DNA of 64,000 nucleotides, taken from Apostichopus japonicus. Its lineage: Eukaryota > Echinodermata > Holothuroidea > Aspidochirotida > Stichopodidae. Position 1 is the first letter of the stretch. Each line of letters begins with the position of its first letter. The notes under the pieces were generated by a model. The model searched no databases. It saw only the letters and a program-made list of their open reading frames with translations, and had not been told where the DNA came from. The position numbers and the translations under genes are program-made. Where the stretch lies: the NCBI RefSeq assembly GCF_037975245.1, contig NC_092570.1:1238501-1302500 (forward strand), given 5' to 3'. Of this stretch, positions 23,603 through 44,800 are shown piece by piece.

Positions 23603-26600
23603 CTGCTATCTTCACTCTCAGAAATTTGTGCCAGAAGTATTTTCCTAGAGTTTGTTTAAAAATAAACAGTTGAAACTTGAAAAGGATAGCACAATGACAT
23701 CTCATACATTAGTAATGATACAACCACGTCATTTTGATTCACCATACATAGGCATCATCACACACACACCCTATAGGCACAATCAAACATCATCACACCC
23801 TATATGAAATGTAGGTGAAATCAGGCGTTCATAGATAGCAATATTAACTATGTTCTTCTTACTACTGGTTAAAACTATCTACATGGGCTTTGATCTCTAG
23901 ATAATTATACTTTCTAAAGGAATATATGACTCACCTCCTTTTGATCCTGATACATTTTGGACAATCTGTCGTAAAGTCAAAACAGGCCCGATGATAACAA
24001 GAACCACATTCTGTGCATTAGGAAGAAAATCTCAAAACTGAAAGATTTATACTTATCAATAAATATGATAAAATAAATATGATAAATATATATGATAAAA
24101 TAAATATGATAAAATAATTCATTGCTGCAAATGATTAATTGCTGCAAATGATTAATTCCATGCCACAAAATAAAGAGTTAATAACTCCTTCACTTATTAT
24201 ATATTTACTTATTAATCTGTTCTATGGACTTCATAAATATGTTTGAATGGCACTTTCATAGGAATGACTTGTTAACATATGTTAAAATTCAGCACTCAAC
24301 ACAAGATACAGAAAACTTTTAATCACAACTTTATGTCTTTACCTGGACACTGAATAGCTTTCTGTAGCTCAAATGGAAATATGACATCACATTCATTCCT
24401 GCACATCTCACAGATGAAACCTTTGGCTTGACAAAGCTGTAAAGATATAAACAAATATAGCGTTTGACATACATTAACAATTGTAGGCACTGTAGAACAC
24501 AACTAAATTCCGATGGTAGCGGAGAATCGAGGGACCTTTTATCGTAAATAGCATCGCAAATTTTTTTTTCATTTTTGTTAAATTTGCATCATTCTGGGCA
24601 AATTTAAACATCAATCTGTCCATACAAAAATCATAAGTGTCTGTAATATGATTTGATGACTCTACCTCACACTGAGTCACATGTTGTACCCCGAGCTGCA
24701 GTAGTTTATTCAGGGTCTTCTCCAGTTCCCCGCTTCTGACCCGCATCAAGTCTTCTATGGAGTAAGTATCCGTCTCGGAGAGAAGGTGTGGAGGTTCTTG
24801 GTCGAACAGTGAAAAAAGGGAACTGTAGGATTGGAAATCAAGTGCAAATGTTTAAAATACAGAAAAATAACAGAATGTTGATTGTTTTACTACAATTCTT
24901 GCCATTTCTGAGGATTCTCGCCATTTCTGAGGAGCTTTTCCTGCCTGCGGTAGCCTTTTCCGTACAAACATTTTCTGTTAACCAACTCGTTTACCACAAA
25001 GTCTGCTGGGACGAAGATTTACGATGTTTCACTCGCTCGTTATCTCAGGTGTCAAAGATTCTGGTTCGATACAACTCAAACTCTCAAGTCGGGAAATTAA
25101 CAAAAACAGAGAAACACCCTGTAGAAACATTTATGAAACAAAAATGAATGCTGTTTCTACAAATACATTAAAAACAAAAAAGTTCCCGCTGATGCTATAA
25201 TCAAACGTCTTACATCAGTAAATCTTAAAGGTTCTTTCCTTATATAGAAGCTGAAGGAAAAAAACCCCGGCAAAATGAACAAACAGGCAACTTACCGATC
25301 GCTTAGCCTACAGGTCCGTATAAAATCTTTCAATGAGAATAGTTGAGACCTAAGCTCCTGAAGAGAGTGATAAAAGATGAGAAACACCATGGTTACGGTT
25401 TGCTTTTGAAAAGAATCAGGAGCATAGGGCAGGGGTGAATTGAGGAAGTGGTATAGAAGAGAAGACGAGGTGATAAGAGAGAGATGGTGGTGAGTGGGGG
25501 AGGTGGGAGGTGGGCCTAAAGAGGAGTATAGAAGGATGATGAGTTTACCTGGCAGTTCTGTAAGGTCTTGACCTTCCTATATAGGTGTGGGTTGATGTCT
25601 CCTATATTAAACAGAGGGTCGCTGTGGATCTTTCTCAAGAATTCCAGTGAAAAGTTCGAGACTGCCATCTTGGTGAAATCCCACTTCCTAAGAATCCTCG
25701 ATGGGATGATGGTTGTGTTGGTCGTGTGGCAACACTGGCAGAAAAATTTACCTAAATAATGGCAATACCTAAGTCTTTTCAGAAACCCTGTCGTGAGATG
25801 AAAATATGGAAAATATTGCATTTCATATTTCGTAAAATAGGTATTATCGGTCTGGTCAAAATGTTACGACTGCAAATAGCATTCATTGATGGAGATGGTT
25901 TGCTTTTGTATGTCAAAGCAATCAAAGAACAAAATGTAGACACTTCCTTTCCACCATGTAGCACCACAGAGGTTCCCAAACAGGCTATAAAAATCTTGTC
26001 ATAAATATACATTATCGGGAGATCTTTTTGGTGATGTGTATACTGTAACTTTAGTAGGATGTCTGTTGGGGGTCAAAAACACATGGAAAGGAATGACTTT
26101 AGGTCATGTTTTTTTTTAGACTCACCTCTTTCTATTTTCATTCCACACCCAGCACACCTATAATTTTGCTTGGCAATGATAAGTTTTCTCCTGCAAAAGT
26201 AAAAATGGAAAACCGATAACGATTTCTCTGAAGAAACAGAGTGGACAATTTCACTTCCAATGTAACAAAGAGGAAGAGATAGAACTACCACTTTAATGTG
26301 GCAAAAGTTTATACAATGATAAAGTTGTCAGAGTACGATTAAAAACTGATTTTTTAGTTCAGACAATTTTCAACAAAAAATTACGATAAAATAAGATTTC
26401 AAATTGGGGGAATTATGACTTATGAGATTGGCAACTTCCCATGATCTCTGGCAGGCTTTCTGTGGGTCCAAGGGTAATAATGTGTATCTGGAACCTTACA
26501 TTGTACTGCCATGAAATCATGTTGACGAATTTGTCAGCTTTGCTACATTAAGCAGGTCCTAAGCCAGCCCCCCCCCCCCTTCACGGGTTGTTCCCATTGA

Positions 26601-32800: not shown

Positions 32801-35800
32801 CGAAGATTTTGTGGTCTGGACACTTTTCATATAGTAGTATTACGTACATTTATAAGCAAATTGGAAACTTTATTGCAATATATTATACCTGACTAAACTG
32901 GCTAAATCTTCAGTGTTTTGGAACTTTAGAACAGAATAAAAAATGATAAAAAAAAGCAACAGGTTTAAGAATGGGTTTAAGAGTGCTTTGGACAAGCACT
33001 TTAAGCATTGTAATCTGGTCTGAGTGTTTGTGTCTTCAGTTTTTTTTCTCTCCTATAGGGTCCTTGATGGGGTCTTGAGTGTCCCTCCTGATCCTTTTTA
33101 AAACTAAGATAAACTAACCCAAAAGTTTGCCTTACAAAGATCTCTCTGACTGGTAATTGGTAAGTTGGTAGCAATTAAGCAAGACAAGCTGAAGATCATT
33201 GCTTCCACACTAAACAATTGTTTCCTCTCTTATTGAAAAGTTATAGGATAGTTAAGTAATAAACATAATCTTCAAAGTGATAAACATAAAATATTGATGT
33301 TATTGAAATGTGTAAGTGAACTTAATTCAGTCTTGATGTAAGTATGGTGTCAGTGCTGTGTTAAGTCTTGAGGTAAACTACTAAAAAGGGATTTCTCACT
33401 TGTGCAAGATAAAGTGGTGGTCATGTTTTTAATAGCTATTAGCAAAATAACTGATCAAATGATTTATCGTTTGTTAGTATGAATCAAGAGGTGGAATAAT
33501 TATGCGCCGTCAAGTGATGTCAAAGACAACACTTTTGGGGTTTACTACTAAAGATGGTCGTTAAAGGAAATAGAGTTTAATATATGAACAAAAGAAAAGA
33601 AAAGAGGATGGTGAACAAATAAACCGATGTCTAAATTGTGTTCGTGTTAGTGCATGGTTTCTTGTGCAGGTAAAATAATAAGTGTTATATCATAATTATC
33701 CATCATGTAGACAATTCTAACCTTCAATAATCATGAAACTGCTTCTTGAAGCAATGAGGACAAAAGATTTATCATTCTTGCAAATACCAACGGTATTCTA
33801 GAATAAAGTGAAGCCATTGAGGCAGAAAAATACCCCCATCTTGCAAGCTAGTTAAATATATAAGAGGTCAAGTCAGGTTGGGAGGCGGTGGGGGTGGGGA
33901 GGAGTAAAGGGAGGGAATAAATACCAAAAGTTATACCAGAATAAAGTGAAGCCATTGATGCAGAAAGACCCCCATCTTGCATACTAGTTAAGTTTGTGCC
34001 CACTCTGTCTGTTAATTCTAAATCCTCCAGACCATCGTTGTCTGAATAATCTGTCAAGGAAGAGCGATGAATGAAACATCAAGTAAGAAAAGAAATCGCC
34101 GATTGTTTGACGAGATGGAAGTTGGTTATCGGTATTTTATAGAGGTATTCAACTTCAGCTACTGGAATATCCCTTTGTAAACTAGTGCTACATTCAAATT
34201 CAGCCACTAGAATATCCCTTTGAAAACTAGTGCTACATTCAACTTCAGCCACTGAAATATCCCTTTGTAAACTAGTGCTTCATTCAACTTCAGCCACTGG
34301 AATATCCCTTTGTAAACTAGTGGTACATTCAACTTCAGCCACTGGAATATCCCTTTGTAAACTAGTGGTACATTCAACTTCAGCCACTGGAATATCCCTT
34401 TGTAAACTAGTGGTACATTCAACTTTCAGCCACTGCAATATCCCTTTGTAAACTAATGTCAACTGCAGCAACAGTCAACTGCAGCCATTGGTATATCCCT
34501 TATATATTCCTCCTTCAGCAGCTAAAAATAAGATCGATTTTACAGCATCCACCTTAAAAAGTAAATAAGCCAATCGGTTTAAGTATACTTTGCTGTAGAG
34601 TTGTAAAGCCTGTTTTAAAACTACTTGCATACGGCGCATCTGATCGAAAGACAAAAACTAATGTCAATTTTATAAATATTTCTTCCTACGATGGCAATGT
34701 ACCGACACATCTGATTGGTTCCTGCTAGAGCAGACGCAACTACTCTGATGAATTGGACTGTCCATGGTGTTTATTCATTTTAGACGACATACCACACAGT
34801 GAAGGATTATTCTCTGTCAAATTCAATTTTTTTTAATTCAAGAACAGTGAGTGATGACAATGGAACTAAAGATTGAAGCTGTGAATTGACATCTAGATGA
34901 AAGTATGACATTGATGTTTTATTATGATACTTACCATGAAAAAACAAAAAAAAGGGCAAAATAAATATGGAAGCATTTTTATGAAAATTCATTGAAATAT
35001 GGGAATTAAATGTTGAATAGCAAATCAATGTCTTTAATACTTTTATGAAAACATGATTTTAATAAACAACAAGTTTTCCCCTCTTACTCAAACAATTTAT
35101 ATTATGAATTTCGCTTTCTTTTCTTATATATATGTAACTTAAAAATCACTTGAAATCACTTAATAGCTTGATGGTTAAATTATATCACTAACACAGTTGA
35201 TCATAATAATGGAGTTTCTGTTTCCATGAAAAACTCTTTTTCTAATTATATTAAGTACTTTCTTTTCGTTAAAGTTTGTAATGTATAGCTACATGCCATA
35301 ATCAAAAACAGAAGGAAAATTTCCCCATATTTTCATAGTTGGAAGAAACAAACTTAGAGAGAATTATGTCGTAGCAATAAAACTAAGAAATATCCGCTCT
35401 TTTTGTCTCCTGTCTCGCTGCATGTACTCATGTCGGTCATTTGTACTCATTATCTGACATGGACAGAATATAAATAAACATATGTCGAGTTTACATTGCT
35501 TATATCCTTATCAATAGTATGGTTTTATTTTGTTTCTTGGGGGAGGGAGGGGTTATGTTTACGTTGCTGTTAACTGTGAATATGTTTCAATTTGTACTCA
35601 TTATAGGTACTAAACCTTTAGAGGGCTTGTTTATCTGACATGATCAGAATTTGAATAAACCTATGTCTAGTTTAGATTGCTTATATCCTTTTCAATAGTA
35701 TAGTATATATATATATATATTTTTTTTGGGGGGGGGGGACATGTTTACGTTGCTGTTAACTGCGTATATGTTTCAATTTGTACTCATTATAGGTACTAAA

Positions 35801-38800
35801 CCTTTAGAGGATATGTTTATCTGACAAGGTCCGAATATGAATAAACTTATGTTTAGTTTAGATTGCTTATATCCTTATCAATAGTATGGTTTTATTTTGT
35901 TTCTTGGGGGAGGGGTATGTTTACATTGCTGTTAACTGTGTATATGTTACAATTTCTAATTATCGATATGACATGTAAACAAAACTGATTTTACAACAGC
36001 TCAGCCATACTTCATTATTTAGTCGAGGAAACAAAATGCTGACGCAGCTGATTTTATTTATGTGTTTTTGGTTGCCAGGTAACATCATAAATTAAGACCG
36101 AACCATGAATGATTATTTTCTTCATAATGAAGCACCGGGATGGTACTACTTATGTAGAAACATTCGTAGCTATTTCAATGTTTTGCCACCACCTGAAAAG
36201 TTCAAGATTAAGACTTTGCGGGTTTACAAGAGCTCTCAAACTGCCATTCTTGGAGTGGACCCATGACCAAACTAAAACAAAACAAATAACCATTATTTGT
36301 AATATTATTATTGGGTAAGATTTTTCATATGTATGATCAAAATGGTATTAGTGAAAGAAATGAAATGGAAAAAATAAAATAAAAACAATTCTCTTGGCTA
36401 TATAACTAATTTAAAAACAATGCCATGTAAGATACAATACCACATCTTGCATAACTAACCACTACCGGCCATACTTCTGTGAAACTACAAATGTTAGCGA
36501 CTAATGAATATTGATATGTATTATGTATACCAAATTATGAGAGGACATGTAGTAACGGTTTACATAAACACTAAAGAACGGATGAAAGCTGTGCAAAAGA
36601 GCATGCACTTGGTAAACAAACAACAACAAAAATTGAAAGAGTTAAATAATGAAAGAATAAACGCGAACAATAATGTGAGGGTTACCCGAATCTGATTCAG
36701 ACGAGGAGAGCTGTAAAATGTCCATCAATTCGGCAGACAATGAGTCAGGACTTGACACTAAAAGAACGAGGGTAACATTGAAAAAAAGAAAGAAAAAAAA
36801 GTACAATTCACTTGAACATGCAAACAATGAACATAAAATGTGATGCAATAACAATGGTCGATCATGCTGGACTTTAAGAGAGGCAAGGAAGAAAAAAAAA
36901 ACTTTACGCTTGACACAAAATATAAATTATTTCTCATTGCTTGCTTGCATCGACCGATCCACTCATGTGGGGGGAGGGGGAAGGCTTCATGTTGAGACCA
37001 TTTCTAGAGAGATGAACATCAAATAAACGAGTCATCAATTACAATGACTGTGGAAGAAGATGATATTATCCTTCACAACTGTCATGGGTCTGTTACTTTT
37101 GACTGACACACCTAGTTTTAAAAACATAAATCCAAACAGAATCCAAAAGAAGAGCCGAATAGCCTGTTTAGGTCAATGAAAAGGACTTTTGTCTTTATGA
37201 ATTACAAAGTGAATAACATACTTCTGTAAGTGTGGGGGGGGGGGGTAGGAATAGTAGAAAGAGGACATTTCCAGATGAGTACCTTATTGTTCACTGGATG
37301 TATTTGAGTACCTTCATATCCAGGGTTTCGTATATTTGAGAATACAAATAACTCTCATATTATTTTTACTAATTCCATGAAAGTATGGGCGGATCTTAGT
37401 CCATTTTTCGAGAGAACGAAGGTAATGGCCTGTTTCATGTTTGTCTCACTGGTAATTTCAGTTTTGTTTTCGTGCACTCTTGTGTACATTTGTTTTAAAG
37501 AATACTATCACCCTCATGGAAAGAATGATTGGGTTATAATTTGAAAGATAAACCAAGTTTTGGGACTCCTCTGTCATTGCCTGATACATTATAAAACTTC
37601 AGGGCCTAAAACATTGAGCTAAATACTGGTCAGTGGATTTTGCCATTTGCCAGAAGATAAAGACTCTGGCCGGGGACATTTGAACAAAATAAGAAACACA
37701 TCATAAGTCGGTCTACATTCATCAGTCAAAGAATGGCATGATTTTGGTTCATAACATGCGGCTCATATTACTGCTTATTAACAGTAAATATTTATTGGCT
37801 GATCCCATACCTCTGTACAGTGTTTTTAGCCATAAGATATTTTAAGCACTGGTATAAAACAGAACACAACAGCTGAGACAGATGAAACAATGGATGCCAG
37901 TTCTACCAATAACATCAAACATGCCAACGTCATAGAAAGAAAACAGTCTTCATGCACAGGTTGCAGAAAAAAACCCAAATAAATGTGTTTGGTTTTTAAC
38001 CAATTTTTAAGAAAGTGTGAGGATAGTAAGTTTAATCTCTATAACTTGTTATATTATTGTTAGTCCTACACCAGTTTGAAGATCAAAGGTTTTAGAACAA
38101 TTAGAGATAATAATTTGAATCTCCATAATCTTTTATCTTTTGCATGTCTTATATGTATATATAACCAGTCCATTTGAAGGGTCAGAGGTGGTAGGTAGAT
38201 ATACATATATATATATATACATATGTACATATACATACATATATATATATACATATATATACATCTACTGCTTTTTTAGACAGATGAAGAGAATCATAAT
38301 CCAAAGCTGCACAAATGCATCACCTCTAGCACACAAGCATGGAACACATAGCAAGCAGAAGCACCACAAAGAGGAACTAACTCTGTATTTAATCTGCACA
38401 TGTTAGACTCAGATGAGCCACGCTCTCTTCTTTGTAATAATGGAATCTATTATATTTATAGCTCTGATTGGATAAGCACTCTAAGCACTAGTTTAAGTGA
38501 GTTCCCTTATATCTGATATCAACTCACCTCCTCTTATCCTGCAGCTTATTTTGCAGTTTCTCATACACCCCTGGTCATCCCCCTCTCGTTACCTTGTTGC
38601 AGTCCCTCATACACCCCAGGTCATGCCCATCTCCTAATACCTTGTTGCAGTTCCTCATACACCCCAAGTGAACCCCTCTGCTTACCTTGTTGCAGTTCCT
38701 CATACACCCCTGGTCATCCCCCTCTCCTCACCTTGTTGCAGTCCCTCATACACCCCTGGTCATGCCCCTCTCCTACCTTGTTGCAGTCCCTCATACACCC

Positions 38801-41800
38801 CTGGTCACCCCCTCTCCTTACCTTGTTGCAGTCCCTCATTCATCCCAGGTTATCCCCGTCTGCTTACCTTGTTGCAGTCCCTCATACACCCCTCATACAC
38901 CCCTGGTCAACCCCCTCTCCTTACCTTGTTGCAGTCCCTCATTCATCCCAGGTTATCCCCCTCTGCTTACCTTGTTGCAGTCCCTCATACACCCCTCATA
39001 CACCCCTGGTCCTCCCCCTCTCCTTACCTTGTTGCAGTCCCTCATACACCCCTGGTCATCCCCCTCTCCTTACCTTGTTGCAGTCCCTCATACACCCCTG
39101 GTCATCCCCTCTTCTTACCTTGTTTCAGTCCCTCATACACCCCAGGTCATCCCCCTCTCCTTACCTTGTTGCAGTCCCTCTTCTTCCAGCAGCATCCTGT
39201 CTCTTCTTCTCTCCTTTCTTCTAATTCTGATCCTCTGTTTCAGCTCTTGTATCTCCTCGTCCGATGCATCTGATTCGCTGTCACAACGCTGCTTCATCTG
39301 TTTACATTTAATCTGTTCAACCGCTGATATAATGGCCTCCGAGATACAGAAATGAGCATTCTCCTAGAAGCAATACCAAAGAGCAAAATTATGGTAGTAC
39401 GTAAAAAACAAAACAAACACAACCCTCACACAAATGTTACTTCTGCAAGGAGGAAATGAACTGTAGAGTTCAACATACTAAATAGCTACAGGTAAAGTAC
39501 TTTAGGATCCCATAGCAATCTGTGCTGCATATTACTAACACCTTCTGTGAAGTGCACTGAAACACAATTGCTGTATTAAACATGGCTAATTCCTCTCACC
39601 TTCAAATTCAATAATATATTCAAAATTTAGAAACTTTACAAAAGAACTAGATCTAGAAAGAACTCCAGCAATTCGATTGACTCCCCCCCCCCCTATTTCA
39701 TCTGCTGACACAAGAGAAAAATTTGTGTTTATGGACAAATTCCACTATTAGCTATGACAGATTCTCATGATATAATGATACAATGAACATGAATGAACTG
39801 AAGTTGAAAAAAAAACAAACCACATTTTAATAAATACTCTTCCATGTTTCCATATATAACAAGGGAAATATTTTTATGTCTGTAAGTTATAAAACAAATT
39901 TATGGAGACTTTACCCTGTCTAGTTCTGGGCAGGTAGCAAAATCTTGTGATGATAGAAAACTCATTAACGATTCACCCTCTGATGGCTGGGGGAAATATC
40001 CATCCACCATTGGTGACTGGATCCCTGATGAAAGAAACATAAAACATAGAATAGTTAGCAACAGAGCCTCAAAACATAAAGAAATAATATGCATATCATT
40101 CATGAGTAGAAAAATTTCATTAATAATAATAATGATAAATTATATTTATATAGCGCTTAATAGAGCGTTTCAAAGCCCTTACCCTCATTCCTCATTTCCT
40201 CAAGCGCTTTCCTCAAAGCATTTCATTCCTCATTTAACTTATCACTCCCATCTAAGCTAGTGGTCTCTGACTCAGAGAATGGATAAGACTACTGATAATT
40301 CTCACAAATGCCTGTTATATATAACTTTGCACATGCACGCATAGATCATGAACATTTTGAGATCATACAAAAACAAGGATGTTGCAACAAAAGAAAATTA
40401 ACTTTTTTATATGTCTCTTACCGTGATACCACTGCCTCTCATGGTCCGGGAGAGAAGAAGAGTATTCACCTCCATCACTATCATCATTACTCGCTTTAGC
40501 CTCCTCCTCCATTATCCTTCTCGCCTCTTTTTGGGTTAGATGCTCCGAGTGCCACCGTTTATGGGCGTTTCTCCTCCTCAATAGTTTCTCATGTTGAGAC
40601 ATGCTGGCGTCGGTACTCAGTTTTCTCAGACGGCTCCTCGATTTCACCGATCCAAACTGGTCGTGCTTCTTTATAGATCTCTCCCAATTGTCTTTCCCCT
40701 CCGGTGAAAATAAACTGACGTGGTAATCCGTGTCGGGGCGCACAGAGGCTTCCGCGCCCTTCGAAGCTCTGCCGGCATGTGAATGATACCTGCGGACCGG
40801 CCCCTTGCGCCTGACTTCATATGAGTTTTCGTTTTTGGTCGGATCTTCTCGCACTACCTCTGCACCCCTCGTTGCCTCCCATGGCATCTCATTCTCTGTG
40901 ACCCGAACATTGCTATTGTCTTCCATGATGGCGTCTTCTTCTACCCGCAGATTTCGGTGACTACGGGCACTCCGACCCTGGTGACTCTCTCGTACTCTTT
41001 TAGAGGGCACAAACTCCTCCTCAGAGCTTAACCGGCTCAGAGGGACTTGCATCTTGTTATTCTTCCTCTTAATCACGCCATTTTCGGATGGCTCGTTCCC
41101 GTTGACGTCACCTGAGGAAGGATTGGACTCTCTTGTCAAATCTGTACAATGAATATTCATGAGAGGGTCCTTATCTTCAGTCTGAGCGATTTTATCTATA
41201 CTTCCTCTTCTCTCTTTCACGTCCAGAACAGATTCCAAGTTATCTTTAGCGCTCCTCCTGTGGTTAGGTGGTATACTTCCTAGGGCATGCTCTGGGCTTA
41301 ATGACACAGTTACATCCTGCTTACAAGGCTCAATAAAGATTGGTGGGTACAACCGAGATCCTAACTCATTGGAGCCTTGGTAGCTGAAAGGATTGAAGGC
41401 TGATCTCGGTGGAAAAGACGGCTCTTGACGGGTGATTGACCTTTGCATCTGAAACTAGATTGAAAAATGTATTCACTTGAATACATTCCGTCATTTTGAT
41501 ATTAACTCACCTGCAAATTCTATAGCCATTCAATGTTAAGTGTAAGTTACAAGCCATTCAATGTTAAGTGTAAGTTACAAGCCATCCCATGTAAAGGGTA
41601 ATTTATAAGCCAACCCATGTAAAGTGTAAGTTACGGGCCATCCCATGTTTAGTGTAAGTTACGAGCCATCCCATGTAAAGTGTAATTTACAAGCCATCCC
41701 ATGTTAAGTGTAATTTATAAGCCATTCCATGTTAAGTGTAATTTATAAGCCATCCAATGTTAAGTATAAGTTACAAGCCATCCTGCTTCTCCCTAATGCA

Positions 41801-44800
41801 TATGTGGTTGCTTATAGCCTCGTTCCAGGGCGATTTAGTATAACTTGTTTTCCCCTTTAATCTAACAACAGGAATAGCTTGTGAGGTCAAAATAATGTGG
41901 ACATCTCAATTACATGCATGGACATTTCATGGTTCTCAAACCTTTGAACCAATGAATTTCCTCACGTTGACCAATAGCAACCATTTCCTCATCGAGACAG
42001 TATTGTAAGTGTACAATGCATTCAGTTTTTCAACACAATTACATAGAAAAAAGACCTCAACAACTGAAACCAACGAAGTCCTTTAAACCTTTCCTTGAGA
42101 AACGATTGCCATAAACCAACCCCAACATTACCGATGAGAGACCAAAAAACTGTAAATGCTTATCTACTGCAAAAGGCTTGTGTTGGCAAAATGTAATAGT
42201 TAGTCGGCCTGACATTCCCATCTTAGCAGGGTAATCGTTAGAGCCGAACCTGGAAATTAATCTACAAAAATGCTTACCAATTTGACTGGAAATACCACGA
42301 AAGATACATGACTATTGATTTATGGTCCATCGTTGAGATATTTCAGTCACAAAAACAAGAAAAAAGAAGCTCAGAAATTCCAGCACTTTATTTCCTCAGA
42401 ATAAAATTCAAATCCACATAAACAATCAGCCACGTTCCACGATAATTTGATGCCATTTTCCGATATTTCAAATAAATCACCAAAGTCAGACGATTTTGAA
42501 CAGATTCTAGAAAACATCTGTTTACATCACTTGTAAAACAGAACGTTTAGTTTAACTGTGCAATGACAGTTTACTGACTGTTATCCATTGATGGTTGCAG
42601 ATGTAAGTAACTTTGCCAACACTGGCTGGTGGTTTTGCATGCAGGCATAACGATGATACAAGCATGTCTGTCATTCAATACTTTGTGTTCAGTTTCCTGT
42701 TTGTCATGCATTAGGCAGGTACTCTAGACTGCTATAATAGAGAGTGATTTATCAACAAAAGATTTGTTTCACTTCCTAACGACTTAACTGATAATTGATA
42801 GCGCTTTACAATCCTACTTATGAATATGTTTTTTTTTTATGTACAATGGATTTTAATTAACTTCATAAACTTTAAACTCACCAAGCTGTAGTCCAACTCG
42901 GCTAAGAGGCAAGAGTCATTATGTTCAATGGCTCTCAAACAGGTCAAGAGGGCTTGGGTAAAGGCTGGCTGGCAGACAAGGGCATAATCTGTAACAAATG
43001 AAATAACAAGACATTAATTAATACAGTCTACATAAAGGGAAATGGAATGACAACATATTAATATATAACTACTCATTGCCTTAGTATGGCAGTAGTTCAT
43101 GGCATCTCTTCCATGCAATGATAACACATAATTATGGTTTGTCTCGCACACTACAGAACAAACAACAACAATGAGAACAAGCATACAAAGTACAAAATAC
43201 AACAACACCTGTATTAAAGTAAAGCATATCAATACATGGCTGCTCCTTGCCTTATTATAGCAGTAGTGTCTGGAATCTCTTCCATGCACTGACAATACAT
43301 AATTATGGTTGTCATGCACTCTACAGAACAAAAAACAACAAAAAAGAACAAACATACACGATACAACAACACCTGTATTAAAGTAAAGCATATCAATACA
43401 TGACTGCTCCTTGCCTTATTATAGCAATAGTGTCTGGAATCTCTTCCATGCACTGACAATACATAATTATGGTTGTCATGCACTCTACAGAACAAAAAAC
43501 AACAAAAAAGAACAAACATACACGATACAACAACACCTGTATTAAAGTAAAGCATATCAATACATGACTGCTCCTTGCCTTATTATAGCAATAGTGTCTG
43601 GAATCTCTTCCATGCACTGACAATACATAATTATGGTTGTCATGCACTCTACAGAATAAACAACAAAAAGAACAAACATACAAAATACAACAACACATGA
43701 AAGTATACCAATACAGTAAGTGTCTCTTGCCTTATTTATTGCAATGCCTTTCATGTTGTTGGTGATAATGCAATTTTATTTGCATTGTCACACACTCTAG
43801 AAACTAAGATAGAGTTACTATTTGTGCTTCAGGCATATAATGAATACATTCAAGTATTGTTACTTTCATAAATTAATGTCACAGGGAAGTATACATGGAC
43901 CACAATGTATGTTACAATTCACAACAAACATTAACACATTGTTTTGCACTGAAACAGTCTCTTTTTGAAGGAAACATGTTTACAAGCTACTGATTACTAT
44001 TTGACTTTTACTGCATTCTGCTGAGTTAGTTTGCCACCCACCATTGGCCTAGGAGCCCAATTTGATTTGGAGAGGGGGGGGAGGGGGTTGTAACGATTTG
44101 GCTGAAAACCAATATGTAAGGGCATACTGGTGAGACCCCCCCTCACCTTTGAAATTCGAATTCGTCAACAGTCATACATATCATAACATCGTCTTGGACA
44201 GAGAAGGAAAGCATGTACTGCGAACTGTGTCAATTTACTACACAACATCGATGTCAGATTAGTTGAGCAAGCTTAGAACGTTTATTACCTGAGGCTGATT
44301 TTTTTACGCAACTACTGACCCTCATCAAACAAGATAATCGCAGGTTATGTTTTTGATTGCAGTGCCCAAAACGATAGCAAGCATATTGCCCGAATTTTCA
44401 CAGAATATCTTCTTGGAGGGGCTGCAGCCCTCCCCGTGCCCCGGCCTCCTATGCCAATGCTACCCACCAAATATGTGGACTTTTTATCTTGTAGAATTGT
44501 CAAAAAATGTTCTCTGTGTAAAACACTCTGTACAGTACATAGCTAAAACACCTTTAATAGTTAATTAGCAAACATAACAAAGGATCTTACAATCAATTTA
44601 AAAATAGTGGCTCAAAAAGCTCCTTTAAGGTATGGAATTTCCTCAAGAGATAAACAGGGATATACTACAACTTACACATCGGGTGGCTTCCATTTCAACA
44701 ATTTAACTGAGATTTGGAATCTTTCAATTTAGAAGGTCATTTCTGATGGGAAAGCTGTAGATTGCTCTTGGATGACTATGACTATGACCCGGCCCGGTAT

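Follow-up and report, generated by a model that had tools for sequence, protein, structure and literature searches.

A tandem array of donor-like sites across an exon–intron boundary of the Rubicon gene in the echinoderm Apostichopus japonicus

The question raised by this locus is how one 5' splice site is chosen when near-identical copies of it follow in the same intron. The locus lies in a stretch of 64,000 nucleotides from the echinoderm Apostichopus japonicus (RefSeq assembly GCF_037975245.1, contig NC_092570.1, forward-strand positions 1,238,501 to 1,302,500), which was analysed as a whole and is called the window hereafter; positions are those of the window. Within it the Rubicon gene is encoded on the minus strand, and a minisatellite runs from the end of one of its exons into the following intron, carrying copies of the splice donor with it. 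This array is probably a tolerated, fast-turning minisatellite of the type called mirages, in which the first donor is spliced and leakage to the other donors is minor and degraded. The kind of structure is already known. What is new is the gene, the phylum, the recurrence in one genome and a first, low-powered test in which no significant keeping of the additional donors was seen.

The array and its gene

Tandem Repeats Finder (TRF) places the array at 38551-39180, with a period of 46 bp and 13.3 copies, and it can be split into 13 complete units and a degenerate 14th unit (Table 1). In the minus-strand orientation the typical unit consists of GAGGGACTGCAACAAG followed directly by GTAAGGAGAGGGGGATGACCAGGGGTGTAT, that is, 16 exon bases and then 30 intron bases from the donor onwards. 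The last 16 bases of the exon 39363-39165 (39165-39180) fall within unit 1, and the 16 exon-like bases together with the donor GT are present in all 13 complete units. The units are 45-48 bp in length, except that an inner 11-bp duplication brings units 4 and 6 to 57 bp. Although mean pairwise identity between the units is 88%, units 4+5 and 6+7 form a higher-order pair with only three differences, and this pair and the degenerate edge unit are the pattern of tandem turnover or concerted evolution; the turnover of the array is recent. The array occupies the 5' quarter of the 2,407-bp intron as reconstructed here. In the 671.6-Mb assembly, an exact 21-base unit pattern has seven matches, all at the Rubicon locus, and a 254-base stretch of the array has three, all in the Rubicon array.

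The donors of the twelve further complete units, called decoys in this article, are found at 39118, 39073, 39027, 38970, 38924, 38867, 38821, 38776, 38731, 38685, 38640 and 38592. AG/GT (a slash marks the exon–intron boundary) is intact in every decoy and GTAAG in eight, the remaining four having GTAGG, GTGAG, GTATT and GTAAC. The invariance of GT is unremarkable by itself, as 21 of the 48 adjacent column pairs are invariant across the 13 units (counted by hand from the alignment columns). Pairing with the 5' end of U1, whose standard sequence presumably holds in this genome, is predicted at -10.0 kcal/mol for the real donor and at -9.2 to -10.1 kcal/mol for ten of the twelve decoys; the two weakest reach -5.7 and -6.5 kcal/mol. 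On the minus strand of the window, ten of the 16 MAGGTRAG words are inside the array, the real donor among the ten. In addition, the array contains 38 runs of at least three G in 602 bases, against three in the 1,743 bases of the remaining intron. As a separate observation, the RNA of the array (38563-39200, minus strand) is predicted to fold more weakly than all of 20 dinucleotide shuffles (z +4.0).

The gene is identified as Rubicon by its domains. The exon at the array matches PF21054, the Rubicon PI3K-binding region, by itself, and the E value becomes 7.4e-37 when it is joined to the exons at 36757, 34050 and about 32.6 kb; the joined exons also match PDB chain 9zpd_D, a Beclin-1/Rubicon chimera (E 9.2e-17), and the RH domain follows downstream. 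Fourteen donors, namely 39164, the twelve decoys and a donor-like site at 38527, were tested for joining to the exon 36757-36686, and 39164 gives the sole join (phase 1) that is in frame without a stop. An in-frame TGA in unit 1 starts 29 bases into the intron and is the first stop read by each of the twelve decoys and by the 38527 donor. Since the two RH matches lie downstream, at 25770-25549 and 24917-24591, decoy use would truncate Rubicon well before this Rab7-binding domain and remove it. A preliminary description of the window had claimed the array at this donor, the identity of the gene, GT in all twelve decoys with GTAAG in most, near-identical 5' splice sites for U1, truncation at a TGA within the first unit before the Rab7-binding domain, and higher-order unit pairs as a sign of recent turnover; these claims agree with the results above, the likeness for U1 being predicted for ten of the twelve decoys.

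Other arrays lie close to Rubicon exons. Between a 28-bp array of 9.3 copies (41524-41783) and the acceptor of exon 41448, which follows about 75 bases downstream, there is a donor-like GCAG/GTGAGTT at 41510. The word GTGAGTTRATATCARA occurs exactly at both 38528 and 41511; at least two matches with up to three mismatches were obtained in 28 of 100 shuffles. Furthermore, the Rubicon exon acceptor 42988 has an array (43054-43696) ending 65 bases upstream of it, and the acceptor 34050 one (34147-34455) ending about 96 bases upstream. Arrays may occur next to acceptors as often as at donors.

Similar arrays elsewhere in the genome

A loose search for three AGGTAAG words spaced 32-62 bases apart found 2,399 places, and the control, the same search with the reversed word, 1,483; the AGGTAAG places among the matches listed (C1 and the start of C2) constitute eight arrays. 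The strict word CAGGTAAGT gave 61 places in six arrays in the whole genome. These eight and six arrays, with their flanks, are the 14 comparison arrays. Nine of them start at an exon-like donor and have 7 to 47 exon bases within the array; they comprise six of the eight listed AGGTAAG arrays and three of the six CAGGTAAGT arrays. Homology supports six of the nine (Table 1). One of these six has a P-loop exon, which we take to be NAV-like, Pfam giving generic P-loop families only. As for the exons read from frame and splice signals, L047 has no match in Pfam or PDB and L083 has none in Pfam; another gene is assumed by us to be VPS39-like from its sequence, Pfam and PDB searches being without a match. 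At L043, L045, L079, L081 and L082 no exon was seen to end at the first donor. With Rubicon included, therefore, 10 of the 15 arrays examined are exon-anchored.

Each of the 10 exon-anchored arrays has 8 to 63 additional GT sites with predicted U1 pairing of -8 kcal/mol or stronger, counted as sites and not as units, some units carrying two (KRI1 has 51 sites in about 27 units). In eight of the ten, a stop comes before the first strong additional site. The USP6NL-like gene has 63 strong decoys, and splicing at the first would lengthen the coding sequence by 17 in-frame codons; in the VPS39-like gene, use of the first such site would cause a frameshift.

If the decoys were kept for a purpose, as the preliminary description had raised, their motif might be better conserved than its surroundings or the arrays might be in excess, and neither was found to a significant degree. 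Compared with the remainder of the unit in the 10 exon-anchored arrays (the unanchored L082 being excluded), AGGTAAG is less variable in five (Rubicon, HMGCS, L047, KRI1 and L083) and more variable in the other five (NAV-like, USP6NL, MON1, AKR and VPS39-like), with a Wilcoxon p of 0.85 and a mean rank fraction of 0.57. Nine of these arrays were selected for carrying the motif three times, so the bias, if any, is towards motif conservation. Arrays of the strict donor word are not in excess either, with six per 8,084 CAGGTAAGT words against seven per 5,473 reversed words (p = 0.40); of the seven reversed-word arrays, the five with a TRF row bearing the word (all but L089 and L090) were scanned for open frames of at least 38 aa. 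The count of CAGGTAAGT words is above that of reversed words by 32% of its own total, as compared with three of six arrays at exon-like donors (p = 0.30). Functional maintenance of the decoys is thus unsupported in a test of low power. Nine arrays selected from the TRF output make up 5.5% of the window, and the most economical view is that this genome often gives rise to minisatellites, some of which include a donor by chance.

Several further observations concern individual arrays. A RanBP1 exon (Pfam) on the opposite strand has its acceptor 12 bases from L082, and an exon that we assume to be TRNT1-like, Pfam having given one chance-level match only, has its acceptor about 50 bases from L079. 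The 240 bases read at L087 include the acceptor of a neighbouring exon, presumably TLC-domain-like. L043 and L044, which lie on C1 at a distance of about 0.5 Mb from each other, have a near-identical 40-bp unit; the exon start was seen for L044 only, and L043 may represent either a copy that has moved or a paralogue that has been lost. The usual 56-bp unit of L083 combines an acceptor-like AACTTACAG with 30 exon-derived bases and a CAG/GTAAGT donor, and each unit, judged by these signals, resembles a small complete exon and is a candidate for a model of intron gain. Four of the ten exon-anchored arrays (Rubicon, MON1, VPS39-like and USP6NL) are in genes that belong to the Rab5/Rab7 endosome pathway, which is likely due to chance. 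Apart from the arrays, the mitochondrial contig (C35, 16,099 bp) agrees with an echinoderm host: its COX1 reads STNHKDIG under code 9, against STKHKDIG under code 5, and is followed by tRNA-Arg, a NAD4L-like frame, a COX2-like frame (both frames judged by eye) and tRNA-Lys, which are the code and gene order of echinoderms. The GFP family had no match in this genome or in any of the control genomes, so that it has no bearing on a lancelet origin. COX1 pieces with TGA codons as in mitochondria were noticed on a second contig (G000:C29:14745-31219), which either carries inserted mitochondrial DNA or is a misassembly of the mitochondrial contig.

Table 1. Features of the Rubicon locus (window positions) and exon-anchored comparison arrays
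Feature	Position	Strand	Basis
Minisatellite, 13 complete units	38563-39180	-	TRF, unit split, U1 pairing, alignment
Degenerate 14th unit, with donor-like GAG/GTGAGTT at 38527	38517-38562	-	Unit split, donor pairing
103-bp higher-order pair, two copies (units 4+5, 6+7)	38838-39043	-	3 of 103 bases differ
Rubicon exon in which the PI3K-binding region begins	39165-39363	-	PF21054, E = 1.7e-17 with this exon alone
Next Rubicon exon, 24 residues including the split first codon	36686-36757	-	Phase-compatible join; 9zpd_D and PF21054 alignments cross the junction
Preceding Rubicon exon, ending in phase 0	39915-40024	-	Splice signals and reading frame, without Pfam support of its own
Donor GT presumably used, G at 39164	39163-39164	-	Reading frame; U1 pairing -10.0 kcal/mol
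Putative intron, 2,407 bp	36758-39164	-	Donor 39164; acceptor TAG before 36757
RH (Rab7-binding) domain, first part (extent of match, not exon)	25549-25770	-	PF13901, E 1.8e-22
RH domain, second part (extent of best match)	24591-24917	-	PF13901, E 3.3e-12
USP6NL-like gene, exon-anchored array			E 7.7e-6
MON1-family longin domain, exon-anchored array			E 8e-4, below Pfam cut-off (weak)
Aldo-keto reductase, exon-anchored array	L044, C1		E 1.9e-5
HMG-CoA synthase, exon-anchored array			E 4.5e-6
KRI1, exon-anchored array			E 7.9e-29
P-loop exon, exon-anchored array			Pfam, generic P-loop families only
L047, L080 and L083, exon-anchored arrays			Reading frame and splice signals only

Known systems and competing explanations

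Minisatellite-like repeats across exon–intron boundaries have been described in lancelet genes under the name of mirages, in Adh3 (unit of 10-72 bp), the globins BflGb6 and BflGb9, troponin C and PGBD5, and a role in intron gain has been proposed for them (PMC3087553, PMC3902484). The Adh3 data and reverse transcription polymerase chain reaction (RT-PCR) of the globins suggested that regular splicing is undisturbed (PMC3087553, PMC3902484). The Rubicon array has the same structure, in that its unit crosses an exon–intron boundary, AG/GT signals occur in the units and the units undergo tandem turnover. However, mirages were described in cephalochordates, whereas the present host is an echinoderm, the gene is Rubicon with 13 units, and the host genome has further exon-anchored arrays.

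In humans, the variable number tandem repeat (VNTR) in intron 18 of ABCA7 has a 25-bp unit and begins with the GT of the real exon 18 donor (PMC5954066). Retention of one unit, which is out of frame, was reported for 2 +/- 1% of transcripts independently of array length, cycloheximide raises the level of isoforms bearing a premature termination codon (PTC), and the longer the array, the more the next exon is skipped (PMC5954066). The Rubicon repeat likewise contains the authentic donor, authentic by reading frame, and decoy use, which leads to PTC-bearing RNA in ABCA7, is predicted to reach the TGA in Rubicon. The two differ in that the ABCA7 array has GT as its first two bases, whereas the Rubicon unit also carries 16 exon bases, and in that copy variation and RNA are known for ABCA7, the Rubicon array being known from the sequence of one assembly. 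By its name, c.1444_1467+7(16_21), the human 31-bp VNTR of CBS has a unit made up of 24 exon bases and the 7 intron bases after them (PMC2630376), and for human IFI6 the title of the report states multiple splice donors. CBS is another gene with another unit, and polymorphism is known there. The IFI6 repeat is said to have a 12-bp unit, which would preserve the reading frame, whereas any decoy in Rubicon reaches a stop. No echinoderm case of such an array was found in the literature by searches that were not aimed at echinoderms and did not cover most subscription journals.

The Rubicon array could have arisen when a 46-bp segment across the exon–intron junction (16 exon and 30 intron bases) was duplicated in tandem, after which slippage or unequal exchange would have multiplied the copies and kept them alike. 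In most transcripts splicing would take place at the first donor, the one bordering the exon, and the decoys would be mostly silent; slight leakage would meet the TGA of unit 1 and be degraded. The decoys would be tolerated rather than maintained, and presumably neutral. Several points weigh against this. The strongest predicted U1 pairing in the exon and intron, -10.8 kcal/mol, belongs to the donor at 38527 just beyond the array, and the choice of 39164 is inferred from the reading frame. In Rubicon units 2-13 the exon-derived part and the GT have three differing cells of 216, against 32 of 360 elsewhere, and their uniformity ranks third among 48 circular positions. GT alone is less variable than the remainder of the unit in seven of the ten anchored arrays (p = 0.22) and in one of four unanchored ones, and the exon-derived part is less variable than the intron part in six of the ten (p = 0.16); these leanings hint weakly at constraint, or at a constrained first unit as the source of the copies, in a low-power test. 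Moreover, the comparison arrays were picked by a repeated donor word, a choice that favours exon donors. Finally, by analogy with the exon skipping in ABCA7, the array may act through its length.

An explanation along these last lines is a rheostat made of poison donors, in which the decoys, or the array through its length, would set the dose of Rubicon by sending a regulated fraction of the transcripts to the TGA or by making them skip the next exon. It would be helped by the ten decoys whose predicted pairing is about as strong as that of the real donor, by the G-run richness of the array, by its weak predicted folding, with which the sites may be open, by the length effect in ABCA7 and by the lean in GT conservation; however, AGGTAAG is not significantly better conserved across the ten arrays, the like structure occurs in unrelated genes and unit retention in ABCA7 does not depend on length, so that we consider it unlikely. 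A regulatory reading is open but unsupported. It is likewise unlikely, although compatible with a tolerated minisatellite, that 38527, in the degenerate 14th unit, was once the end of the exon and that the donor was shifted upstream when the array arose within this exon. Removal of units 1-13 (618 bases, a multiple of three) would leave an open frame to this best-pairing donor, and the join would be in frame if the acceptor were 7 bases downstream of the present one, but the present join is slightly better in both alignments, with 64.6 against 63.5 bits for 9zpd_D and 128.1 against 126.6 bits for PF21054.

The remaining explanations are of far lower probability. That the array is an assembly artefact is very unlikely: it is known from one assembly, but its units are unlike each other, contain an ordered higher-order pair and have similar arrays at other loci. 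The twelve near-identical spares adjoining the real donor might, according to the preliminary description, buffer mutations of it, which we regard as extremely improbable, for this fails at the level of the protein, as every spare and the 38527 donor read the unit-1 TGA and none restores Rubicon. There is next to no chance that the array serves an antisense gene as a series of plus-strand acceptors. The preliminary description had seen an acceptor-like word on the plus strand of each unit, and TTGCAG after a pyrimidine-rich stretch is indeed present in 12 of the 13 complete units, unit 2 being without it; but the end of the coding exon, read on the opposite strand, gives this word, and no Pfam match up to E 0.1 was obtained in the three plus-strand frames of 30-45 kb, so that no Pfam-supported plus-strand gene was found there.

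Meaning of the array

There is a small chance that exon-anchored donor minisatellites are a recurrent and lineage-wide feature of this echinoderm, in which an intron carries from about 12 to over 60 strong donors, and that their length is a heritable splicing rheostat for some hosts and raw material for new or shifted introns, comparable with the proposal made for lancelet mirages. Independently of this, a structure described in lancelets and humans is extended to an echinoderm, at several exons of one genome. The arrays are a natural experiment on the choice of the spliceosome among near-identical donors, with one real donor and ten about equally strong decoys in Rubicon and 63 decoys in the USP6NL-like gene, and their recurrence makes donor choice, copy number and intron gain testable with ordinary RNA and long-read data.

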